Part shown: in pieces, positions 14,567 to 20,663 of the stretch
Numbering within the stretch: position 1 is the stretch's first letter
Layout: every line of letters begins with the position of its first letter
DNA from: Candidatus Jettenia sp.
GTDB taxonomy: Bacteria > Planctomycetota > Brocadiia > Brocadiales > Brocadiaceae
DNA: 64,000 bases
Direction of reading: 5' to 3'
Assembly: GCA_021650895.1 (NCBI GenBank)
Contig: CP091278.1
Span: 1,269,659-1,333,658 of the forward strand
Notes under the pieces: model-generated
The model's database searches: none
The model's input: only the letters and a program-made list of their open reading frames with translations
What the model was told of the DNA's origin: nothing
Translations under genes and position numbers: made by a program

Positions 14567-15352
14567 TTAATTTTTCAACATATGGTATTTGCTTTTAAGC
14601 TTTTCACGAGCAGTGTCTTTCGTAAATTTCCAGGTTACCGTTGTGCATTTTCTATTACGATTTTCAGCCCATGCAAGAACCTCTTTTTCTAAGGTCTCCT
14701 TATCGGCAATACGTCGGTCGAGGCATTGCCGAGAAAGAGCAGAAAACTCTATTTCGGCCATATTCAGCCAACTCCCCTTTTTGGGCGTATAGTGTACCTG
14801 AAATTTTTCAGCAAGATCAAAAGCTTCTTCAGGTGGAAATACTTCATAAAAAGAACCAGGTGTATGGGTATTCAAATTGTCTTGAACAAGACGAATACAT
14901 TCTACCCCAGGATAATATACCTGAACGAATTGTTTCACAAATTCGGCATAGTCAACTGCAGTACGCCTTTCTCTTACTTGAACATAACGAAAGCCAGTAT
15001 GGGGTTCAAAAGCGAGTAAAACACAACAACTACCATTGCGCTCGTACTCATAATCTTCCCGTTTGAGTTTTCCCGGCTTCATGGGTATTGGAACAATACT
15101 ATCACCAAGAAGCTGACACGGCCGTTCATCAAAACAGATCAGAGGACGCAAAGGATCATAGGGTTGAGCATACTGATGGAGAACATCTTCCATATGCCAG
15201 ATATAATCGCCCGTTATTTTCCCTATACACCATCGCTTCTTCAGCCACGGTTTCAGTTCGTTTTTTTTAAAGCCTTTCTTACACTTTCTAAACAAAGGGA
15301 TTCTACTACTTTTAACTCTACCAGTTTCTCCCCTATTAACTCCAGTGTCCAT
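14567..15352 (-). CDS. IS630 transposase, downstream frame (DDE catalytic part)
   Basis: Catalytic part of the transposase, in the -1 frame relative to the upstream ORF and overlapping it by 100 nt. DDE residues are visible as ICFDERP, VQDNLNTH and the Glu in NMAEIEFSAL, with the family spacing. The C-terminus (TWKFTKDTAREKLKSKY) is typical and the stop lies inside the terminal repeat, as often in compact IS elements. Translation probably depends on frameshifting at A8, so its first ~28 residues before the slip site are not expected in the fused product. No inactivating change is visible. Confidence 0.88.
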   Translation of the reverse strand: MDTGVNRGETGRVKSSRIPLFRKCKKGFKKNELKPWLKKRWCIGKITGDYIWHMEDVLHQYAQPYDPLRPLICFDERPCQLLGDSIVPIPMKPGKLKREDYEYERNGSCCVLLAFEPHTGFRYVQVRERRTAVDYAEFVKQFVQVYYPGVECIRLVQDNLNTHTPGSFYEVFPPEEAFDLAEKFQVHYTPKKGSWLNMAEIEFSALSRQCLDRRIADKETLEKEVLAWAENRNRKCTTVTWKFTKDTAREKLKSKYHMLKN

Positions 15353-15693
15353 CGTACAGCCCCTTGGGGAGGCTCTGAACAGGCTATCATGGAAACAGCA
15401 GATTCCACCCTCTTATCTACTTTGAGAGGCTGGCCGCTTCGAGGCTTCTCTTGTAGCAATTCCACGATAGTATCAAACTTGCTTTGCGTGAACTTCTTCC
15501 GCATTTTATATATGGCTGTTCTACAAACCCCTAATACACTGATTATTTCGTCATCGATCTTACCCTCATTTGACAGTAATAAAATACGTGCTCGATTTAT
15601 TGCTCTGGCTGATTTTTTCCCTTGTTTTACATACGTTTCTAACTCTTCTCGTTCTCTTTCGCTTAATTGAACATTATATATTTTTTTTGGCAT
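15253..15693 (-). CDS. IS630 transposase, upstream frame (helix-turn-helix part)
   Basis: N-terminal 146 residues of the transposase. It begins MPKKIYNVQLSEREREELE and has the DNA-binding winged/helix-turn-helix signature of IS630/Tc1-like enzymes: ARAINRARILLLSNEG, DDEIISVLGVCRTAIYKMRKKF and EKPRSGQP. The frame stops at 15253, just after a run of eight A residues in the mRNA (template T8 at 15261-15268). A -1 slip there would join it to the catalytic frame, the usual way this family makes a full transposase. A ribosome site (GGAAGGA) precedes the ATG. Confidence 0.88.
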   Translation of the reverse strand: MPKKIYNVQLSEREREELETYVKQGKKSARAINRARILLLSNEGKIDDEIISVLGVCRTAIYKMRKKFTQSKFDTIVELLQEKPRSGQPLKVDKRVESAVSMIACSEPPQGAVRWTLELIGEKLVELKVVESLCLESVRKALKKTN

Positions 15694-17031: not shown

Positions 17032-18303
17032 ATGGAAAAATATCTTATCGCTATTTTTATCCTCTATCTTCTCGTGGTCATTTCAGACCACTGGCTCGAA
17101 TATCTCAATCTCTCCCATCTCAAAAAGTATGGCGCCTCAATCCCTCCGGAATTCGAAGGGTATATAGACCAGGCATTACTGAAAAAGACACAAGACTATG
17201 TTATTGAGAATACAAAATTTGAGGTTGTTTCGTCTACTTTCCATACCATAATCTTCATATTTTTTCTCTTCGGAAATCTGCTGGATATCTACAATTCATG
17301 GATTATCTCTCTGAAATTACCCTTTATCTTATCAGGTTTGATCTTCTTTTTGCTTCTGTTTTATGCTGACGCACTCCTTAAAATTCCCTTCGATCTTTAT
17401 CATACATTTAAAATAGAAAATAACTATGGGTTTACAACTACCACCCGAAGGTTGTGGGTAACCGATCTCATAAAGTCACTGGCAATATCCACGACTCTAA
17501 TGGCTATCATACTATCGGGCGGCCTTCTAATTATTCAGGTAAGTCCCACCTTATGGTGGTTATGGGTATGGTGTCTCTTTCTGGCCCTCAGCATCATAAT
17601 TATGTACATCTTCCCTTACGTAATAGAGCCGCTCTTTAATAAGTTTACCCCTATTGAAGACGAGAAACTTCAGGAGGGTATACGCTCTATCATGCAAAGG
17701 GTTGGTATAAAGGTAAAAAAGGTCTTAAAAATGGATGCATCAAAGAGAACAAAGCACACCAACGCCTACTTTACCGGTATTGGAAAGGTAAAAAGGATTA
17801 TTCTCTACGATACACTCCTGGAGAAGATGGATAATGATGAAACTCTGTCAGTCCTTGCACATGAGGTGGGACACTGGAAAAAACGACATCTTATAAAACA
17901 TCTTATTGCATCAGAATCTATAGCATTAATCGCTCTGTATATATCCTATAAGCTCATGCAAAGTGATTTCCTTATTCATCTCTTTCATATCAAAGATGCT
18001 ACATTCTTTGCAAAGGTTGTTATTCTGGGTTTTTTAGGTTCCCTGGTAGCATTTCCCTTTACGCCGGTATTTCATTTCTTTTCAAGAAGGTATGAAATTG
18101 AAGCCGACCGGTTCTCCTGTGAGTTGACGGGAAACAGCAAGAGTATGATAAGTACCCTCATAAAACTTTCAAAGGATAACCTTTCAAATCTCCACCCTCA
18201 TCCTCTGTATGCCGCTTTTCACTATTCACATCCACCAGTACTGGAAAGAATAAAACGTATTAAGCAGGGGCAGGTTTCAAACCTGCCCCTACAACAACAT
18301 TGA
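17032..18303 (+). CDS. M48 Ste24-type membrane metalloprotease
   Basis: Multi-pass membrane zinc protease related to CAAX prenyl protease Ste24. Several N-terminal hydrophobic segments (residues ~1-20, 62-125, 145-210) precede the family marker FNKFTPIEDEKL, TNAYFTGIGKVKRI and the zinc motif LAHEVGHWKKRH, with the third ligand in YEIEADRFSCEL. C-terminal PLYAAFHYSHPPVLERI is characteristic. Length 423 is typical. The bacterial role is probably membrane protein quality control. The last residues (about GQVSNLPLQQH) are encoded by a GGGGCAGGTTTCAAACCTGCCCC hairpin repeat, so the original C-terminus may have been replaced. Confidence 0.93.
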   Translation: MEKYLIAIFILYLLVVISDHWLEYLNLSHLKKYGASIPPEFEGYIDQALLKKTQDYVIENTKFEVVSSTFHTIIFIFFLFGNLLDIYNSWIISLKLPFILSGLIFFLLLFYADALLKIPFDLYHTFKIENNYGFTTTTRRLWVTDLIKSLAISTTLMAIILSGGLLIIQVSPTLWWLWVWCLFLALSIIIMYIFPYVIEPLFNKFTPIEDEKLQEGIRSIMQRVGIKVKKVLKMDASKRTKHTNAYFTGIGKVKRIILYDTLLEKMDNDETLSVLAHEVGHWKKRHLIKHLIASESIALIALYISYKLMQSDFLIHLFHIKDATFFAKVVILGFLGSLVAFPFTPVFHFFSRRYEIEADRFSCELTGNSKSMISTLIKLSKDNLSNLHPHPLYAAFHYSHPPVLERIKRIKQGQVSNLPLQQH

Positions 18304-19046: not shown

Positions 19047-20663
19047 ATGAAAAAGATTTATTCGCCCATCATGTTATTCCCTCTGGTAATAAGCATTCTC
19101 TCAGCGGGATGCGGACTGATGGAAATGATGGAAAGAGAAACCGGTACTGTAGAAGAGCCATCTAAAATGACCAAGGAGGAGCGCAAAGCCGATAAAATAG
19201 CTGATAAACTTTGGGAAAAGATACAGAAGGAAAGCTACCGGCAGAATTGGAAGATGTGGCCAGGCAAGGAAGCTTTCTATCCAGGAAAGGAACCACATGG
19301 AACTTTATTAATTACCTATGTAAATGACATCGCTTATGATGCAATAGTAAATAAAAAGGAACGTATGCCTCCGGAAGCAATAATAATTAAAGAAAACTAT
19401 ACGCAAAACAAAGACCTTGCTTCTATCACCGCAATACAAAAGATAGAAGGTTTTAATCCTGATGCCAATGACTGGTATTGGGTCCAATTTGGACCAGGCG
19501 GTGAAGTTATGACCATTGAAGAGTATGGCCAAACTACGAGGTTAGCAGGCAAAATCGATGAATGTATCAATTGCCATAGTGAACAGAGCAGTAACGACTA
19601 CCTTTTTACAGGTTCTTCAGGAGGAACAATGTTTGAGACTAAAAAAACTAAAGCTGAGGAAACTGAAGAAGATGAGGAAGATGAAGAAGATAAGGAAGCC
19701 GAAGAAGCTCATGAAGAAGCAGCAAACGAAAAAGAAATTGCTGAAGGAATTTGGAGTAAGATACAGATTGAAAATTATCGGGAAAATTGGAAGATGTGGC
19801 CAGGAAAAGAGGCTTTTTCACCAGGAGAAGAGCCGCATGGGGCTTTATCAACCACTTACCTGAACGACACTGCTTATGATGCATTGGAAAATAAAGAGAA
19901 ACAATTGCCTCACGGGTCGATACTGGTTAAAGAAGACTACACACCAGCTAAAGAACTTACCGCTATCACGGTAATGAAAAAAATAGAAGAGTATAATCCC
20001 GAAGCAAATGATTGGTACTGGGTTCAATACAGAATGAATGGAGAAGTTGCAACAAAGAAGAAGAATGGCAAAATTATGATACTGGCCGGTAAGGTTAGCG
20101 ATTGCTCCGACTGCCATGCCAGGCGTAACAATAATGATTACATTTTTACCAGTACATTAGGTGAAGAAATACCTGAAGCTGATATTGAGGAAATAAAGGA
20201 AGAAATGCCTACCGATGAGGAAATTGCAGATAAGATCTGGAATACCATGGAGAGTGAAGATTATCAAAAAAGCTGGAAGATGTGGCCAAAGAAAGAAGCT
20301 TTTTATAAAGGGAGGGAACCCCATGGGGCTTTATTAACTACCTATGTAAACGACCCTGCTTATAAGGCAATTGTGAATAAAGAGAAACAGATGCCTGACG
20401 GCGCAATAATTATCAAGGAAAACTATACACCGAATAAAGAGCTTACCTCTATCATGGTAATGAATAAAAGGGAAAATTATGGCAGCGAGGTTAATGATTG
20501 GTATTGGGTGCAGTATGAACCTGATGGAGAAGTTATGACTATGGAAAAGGAAGATGAAACGGTAACACTCGCAGGTAAGGTAGAGGATTGTATTGACTGT
20601 CATGGTAAGAAGATTAACAATGATTACCTCTATACAAGTTCCCTCAGGGAGTTTCAAAGATAA
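19047..20663 (+). CDS. Lipoprotein with three tandem cytochrome-P460-like haem domains
   Basis: Predicted periplasmic haem lipoprotein. A signal peptide ends in a lipobox SAGC. Three homologous ~140-residue modules follow (about residues 45-190, 225-370, 385-535). Each has W-K-MWP-K-EAF-G-EPHG, a MP-(E/D)-(A/G)-II-KE-Y segment, NDWYWVQ and a terminal CxxCH: CINCHSEQ, CSDCHARR and CIDCHGKK. This order matches cytochrome P460/c'-beta proteins, where the haem is covalently bound through CxxCH and, in true P460, cross-linked to a Lys. An acidic Glu/Asp-Lys linker (~residues 195-225) separates modules 1 and 2. A strong AAGGAGG ribosome site precedes the ATG. Hydroxylamine/NO chemistry is the family precedent; activity here is inferred. 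Confidence 0.85.
   Translation: MKKIYSPIMLFPLVISILSAGCGLMEMMERETGTVEEPSKMTKEERKADKIADKLWEKIQKESYRQNWKMWPGKEAFYPGKEPHGTLLITYVNDIAYDAIVNKKERMPPEAIIIKENYTQNKDLASITAIQKIEGFNPDANDWYWVQFGPGGEVMTIEEYGQTTRLAGKIDECINCHSEQSSNDYLFTGSSGGTMFETKKTKAEETEEDEEDEEDKEAEEAHEEAANEKEIAEGIWSKIQIENYRENWKMWPGKEAFSPGEEPHGALSTTYLNDTAYDALENKEKQLPHGSILVKEDYTPAKELTAITVMKKIEEYNPEANDWYWVQYRMNGEVATKKKNGKIMILAGKVSDCSDCHARRNNNDYIFTSTLGEEIPEADIEEIKEEMPTDEEIADKIWNTMESEDYQKSWKMWPKKEAFYKGREPHGALLTTYVNDPAYKAIVNKEKQMPDGAIIIKENYTPNKELTSIMVMNKRENYGSEVNDWYWVQYEPDGEVMTMEKEDETVTLAGKVEDCIDCHGKKINNDYLYTSSLREFQR

Follow-up and report, generated by a model that had tools for sequence, protein, structure and literature searches.

A lipoprotein of an anammox bacterium with three cytochrome P460-like modules and a predicted haem pocket unlike those of the known classes

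Among the closest described relatives of the protein analysed here are the cytochromes P460 of Nitrosomonas europaea and Methylococcus capsulatus (2je3, 6hiu), which consist of one domain with a CxxCH haem c, a lysine at the haem cross-link position, a distal Glu or Asp, and Phe or Arg as capping residue. A 2025 review distinguishes three features of the pocket, namely the cross-link lysine (Lys70 in N. europaea P460, Ne; Lys78 in M. capsulatus P460, Mc; Lys106 in NsP460 of Nitrosomonas sp. AL212), the distal carboxylate (Ne Glu96, Mc Asp102) and the capping residue, which is Phe or Arg in the structurally characterised members (PMC11928373). NsP460 (6amg) is inactive with hydroxylamine despite its cross-link, and has Ala in place of the distal carboxylate (PMC11928373). 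The cytochromes c'-beta (Thermus, Tt, 7ead; M. capsulatus, 6hih) lack both the lysine and the distal acid and have a Phe cap; gas binding has been proposed for them, and more generally diatomic gases are the proposed ligands of superfamily pockets that lack the acid (PMC11928373). Tandem, fused or planctomycete members of the superfamily are not mentioned in that review, and a description of multi-domain P460 proteins was not found in the open-access literature.

A three-module protein of this kind is encoded in a 64,000-nucleotide stretch (the window) of the 3.82-Mb single-contig genome of a Candidatus Jettenia bacterium, for which the nearest named record is Candidatus Jettenia ecosi, the basis of its assignment to the genus. 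Hydrazine synthase alpha (HZS_alpha, 102 bits) is found at two places in this genome, which marks the host as an anammox bacterium and bears out its earlier description as a nitrogen-cycling organism. The gene is preceded by a strong ribosome-binding site, aaggaggaaggaATG, and its reading frame is exactly that given in the first-pass annotation, which had proposed one lipoprotein with three P460-like modules on a single chain; the lipobox and the three PF16694 matches (Table 1) confirm this proposal. Orthologues with 91-96% identity are present in two further Jettenia genomes, and comparison of the window gene with its Jettenia relatives points to purifying selection over every module (dN/dS 0.05-0.20). 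A chance ORF, a frameshift and an assembly artefact were rejected on the basis of this conservation and of the dN/dS values. Scans for promoters and terminators gave nothing above chance. In genome G002 the triple-module gene occurs at two places on one contig (C4, 4311 and 1207076; L007, L030), near both ends, possibly because of an unresolved overlap of the contig ends.

Table 1. Features of the three-module gene and its synteny anchor (window positions)
Feature	Position	Strand	Basis
Three-module P460-fold lipoprotein gene, 538 aa	19047..20663	+	ORF; PF16694 8.8e-33; present in three Jettenia genomes; dN/dS about 0.1
Lipoprotein signal peptide, ending in lipobox LSAGC (residues 18-22, Cys22)	19047..19112	+	by inspection
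Module 1, aa 68-190	19248..19616	+	HMM 209 bits; PF16694 38.8 bits alone
Lys115, cross-link position, module 1	19389..19391	+	profile alignment to 8gar, 6hiu, 7ead
CINCH haem-c motif, module 1	19563..19577	+	sequence
Linker 1, acidic, length differs between Jettenia genomes	19617..19787	+	sequence, alignment
Module 2, aa 248-372	19788..20162	+	HMM 198 bits; PF16694 47.7 bits alone
Lys295, cross-link position, module 2	19929..19931	+	profile alignment and census
CSDCH haem-c motif, module 2	20103..20117	+	sequence
Linker 2, acidic	20163..20273	+	sequence
Module 3, aa 410-534	20274..20648	+	HMM 209 bits; PF16694 49.2 bits alone; AF2 model
Lys457, cross-link position, module 3	20415..20417	+	profile alignment and census
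CIDCH haem-c motif, module 3	20589..20603	+	sequence
M48 (CAAX-type) peptidase, synteny anchor beside the P460 gene, not part of the protein	17032..18303	+	PF16491/PF01435

When each third of the protein was scored alone against PF16694 (Cytochrome_P460), all three exceeded the Pfam cut-off of 27 bits (38.8-49.2 bits). The modules are 52-58% identical to one another and are joined by acidic linkers whose lengths, on alignment, differ among Jettenia genomes. Each has CxxCH near the C-terminus of the domain, as in the P460/c'-beta superfamily, and each contains NDWYWVQ, both of which had been noticed at first reading. An AF2 model of module 3, built from a 17-sequence alignment (mean pLDDT 79.9), matched P460 and c'-beta structures with Z scores of 7.6-10.8, against 4.6 for the next fold; the top match (Z 10.8) was among the cytochromes c'-beta, with others within about 1 of it. 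Module 3 is thereby predicted to adopt the five-stranded beta fold of the superfamily, and modules 1 and 2 probably share it, judging from their sequences. The full-length chain, modelled by AF2 from a single sequence, reached a pLDDT of 35. Searches of PDB sequences with the full protein, with module 3 or with the first profile placed repeat proteins (WD40, Kelch-like designs) at the top; once the strand behind these matches had been masked, the profile recovered P460 and c'-beta structures.

The masked module profile was aligned to the solved structures 8gar, 6hiu and 7ead, with the N. europaea P460 sequence taken from the match to 2je2. The module lysine (K115, K295, K457) aligns with Mc Lys78, Ne Lys70 and Tt Phe61, so all three modules have the residue that characterises P460 in the strict sense and depart from c'-beta, which lacks it. 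The first-pass annotation had placed this lysine in a segment MP-x-x-II-KE-Y common to the modules; the lysine holds in all three (IIIK, ILVK and IIIK), but the full motif does not, as module 2 reads LPHGSILVKEDY. The His of an EPHG motif aligns with the capping Ne Phe41 (mature position 40 by our own count) and with Tt Phe29, which by alignment gives each module a His cap in place of the Phe or Arg of c'-beta. The Leu four residues past this His aligns with Ne Arg44, a site that is Leu or Ser in the modules. The Thr of ITVMxK aligns with Tt Gly82, and the carboxylate-site residue, which lies four before a conserved Lys in the Ne (Glu96), Mc (Asp102) and Tt (Gly82) proteins, is by the same count Thr, Thr and Met in modules 1, 2 and 3. 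The modules are therefore predicted to have a pocket unlike those of the known classes, in which the lysine would be combined with a His cap and with Thr (Met in module 3) for the distal carboxylate. The Jettenia protein thus differs from the N. europaea and M. capsulatus enzymes in its three domains, its lipid anchor, its His cap and its Thr or Met for the acid; NsP460 likewise has the lysine without the carboxylate, but is a single domain with Ala and Phe in the pocket where the Jettenia modules have Thr and His.

These residues bear directly on the suggestion that three cross-linked P460 haems oxidise hydroxylamine (or hydrazine), with the hydroxylamine leaking from anammox metabolism. The lysine in all three Jettenia modules and the nitrogen-cycling host are in keeping with such an oxidase, as is the retention of the lysine by every one of the 40 single or last modules in a census of 56 modules, drawn from Brocadiales and from one further planctomycete. 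However, the carboxylate site is acidic in 0 of the 56 (52 Thr, 3 Met, 1 Ile), and inner modules of relatives have lost the lysine. Hydroxylamine oxidation, which the first-pass annotation had connected with the modules, becomes distinctly improbable since cross-linked P460s without the distal carboxylate, such as the AL212 protein with its Ala, do not carry it out (PMC11928373).

The lysine at the cross-link position was found in 30/30 single modules and 10/10 C-terminal modules, but in only 8/16 inner ones (Fisher p 9e-6, with relatedness ignored), and at least three losses are seen on the module tree; the Jettenia triple retains it throughout, inner modules included. Loss confined to inner modules of some relatives (e.g. 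in Kuenenia) is the one point at which the lysine-free state of c'-beta recurs in these proteins. Pure c'-beta gas binders lack a P460-type haem, and the presence of the lysine in every single or last module suggests that such a haem matters, which counts against a pure gas binder. A planctomycete that does not belong to the anammox order (L066) has a single module with the His/Lys/Thr combination, implying that the subfamily either predates the anammox lineages or has undergone transfer. A P460-like module of another genome (G280, L057) has Tyr at the lysine position (TLVYEEI) in a by-eye alignment. Other genomes of the anammox order (L047, L048, L049, L050, L051) encode a second, distinct lipoprotein, about 330 aa long and with two PF16694 domains, which reads as a tandem cytochrome c'-beta because, aligned by eye, it has a hydrophobic residue for the lysine and, at the carboxylate site, Ala or Gly; a lipoprotein of this type is absent from the window's genome.

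The capping position divides the census differently. His is found there in 26/26 modules of multi-module proteins and in 11/27 readable single modules, while Pro replaces it in 14 single modules that retain the lysine and Thr; one widespread single-module clade has Pro. A second P460-fold protein of the same genome (L077, 7417-7917; G000:C1:2249509-2249910) is a secreted single module with Pro for the His cap; by eye, its gene adjoins gyrase-A-like and Fur-like genes, a neighbourhood also found in G002 and G012. The capping His could in principle act as sixth ligand, producing bis-His low-spin haems, and the modules would then serve outside the membrane to store electrons or hand them on. The constancy of His in multi-module proteins and the flexible chain with three haems would suit that role, which we nonetheless consider unlikely: single modules with Pro at the cap still have the lysine and Thr, the haems of separate beads may lie too far apart, and the distal site is open or water-ligated in solved relatives (PMC11928373). 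Least probable among the alternatives, in our estimation, is a peroxidase-like lipoprotein or one that detoxifies peroxide, in which the distal His would play the general-base part that it has in peroxidases, or else a sensor of redox state or NO. The pocket is suitably polar in its His and Thr, but an anammox host is an anaerobe, and the chain has no signalling domain. A polar Arg cap accompanies peroxidase-like activity in Nitrosomonas c'-beta, but known activity of this sort goes with a missing lysine cross-link (Lys70Ala NeP460 gains it; PMC11928373), and the lysine is conserved here.

The explanation that we favour, tentatively and at somewhat under an even chance, is that the protein is an exported haem-c lipoprotein with NO or a different small molecule as its ligand, and not a hydroxylamine oxidase. 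NO is an intermediate of anammox metabolism and acid-less pockets are the proposed gas binders, which together make NO the best guess. A nitrogen-metabolism gene was not found next to the P460 locus, so the choice of NO comes entirely from the biology of the host, and the preference among ligands is not readable from the pocket because the distal His is foreign to the known gas-binding c'-beta proteins. The lipid-anchored, exported chain would hold its three domains on flexible acidic linkers, with one c-haem per module and the His of the observed CxxCH as the presumed proximal ligand. By the structure-activity rule such modules would not oxidise hydroxylamine; they might instead bind NO or a similar small ligand reversibly at the membrane, buffering or scavenging it, with three copies giving a higher binding capacity per lipid anchor. 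A haem-lysine cross-link is not assured in the modules: its formation in NeP460 requires peroxide and suffers when Arg44 is missing, and the present host is an anaerobe whose modules have Leu or Ser at the Arg44 site.

A broader proposal, which we regard as possible although the balance lies against it, is that Lys/His/Thr marks out a third class of pocket within the P460 superfamily, carried on anammox lipoproteins of one to three beads. After duplication the C-terminal module would retain a haem capable of the cross-link while inner modules would be free to turn into ordinary c-haem, and haems of both the P460 and the c'-beta type would then occur together on some chains. The known range of the fold would be extended by a conserved anammox branch that pairs tandem modules with a His/Thr pocket, and such a branch is relevant to the handling of free NO in anammox cells. 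A further question that it raises is whether the peroxide-dependent cross-link can form in an anaerobe; relatives whose chains combine modules with and without the lysine are a natural experiment on the purpose of the cross-link.

The trimeric arrangement had been called unusual at first reading. Single-module forms are indeed commoner, but the arrangement is not peculiar to this host, and two- or three-module relatives occur in several anammox genera. Three-module proteins were found in six sampled Brocadiaceae genomes (three of Jettenia, two of Kuenenia including the Candidatus Kuenenia hertensis record, and G022 of another genus) and two-module proteins in four. These tandem relatives belong to the same subfamily, and a lipobox-like motif precedes the first module in all multi-module relatives of the census; they differ from the Jettenia protein in the loss of the lysine from some inner modules and in their gene neighbourhoods, the Kuenenia and G022 triples sharing one that is different from that of Jettenia. 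The M48 gene of the window, upstream of the triple, is 75% identical to that of G005, a genome of a related genus in which a single-module P460 gene directly follows, and an Slp lipoprotein gene lies near the locus in both. The module tree places the Jettenia modules with the singles of G005, at weak support (84/84). Clade tests, named after the tree had been seen, did not reject the Jettenia modules as one clade (p-AU 0.48), rejected a clade of the first modules of all triples (p-AU 0.018) and were borderline for the last modules (p-AU 0.057). Together with the G005 synteny, these results favour, without proving, a separate amplification within the gene in Jettenia, and disfavour one common origin for all three-module proteins. 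To the extent that a modestly resolved tree can tell, duplication inside a single-module gene, within the anammox family, is the probable source of the Jettenia triple, and the same tree suggests that the other Brocadiaceae tandem proteins were amplified separately.

An IS630-like ORF pair, encoding a DDE_3 transposase and an HTH protein, lies on the minus strand of the window (14567-15693), in the interval that separates the Slp lipoprotein gene from the M48 gene. This interval measures about 2.6 kb in the window, whereas in Candidatus Jettenia ecosi (L036) it is about 430 bp long, and the pair therefore looks recently inserted.
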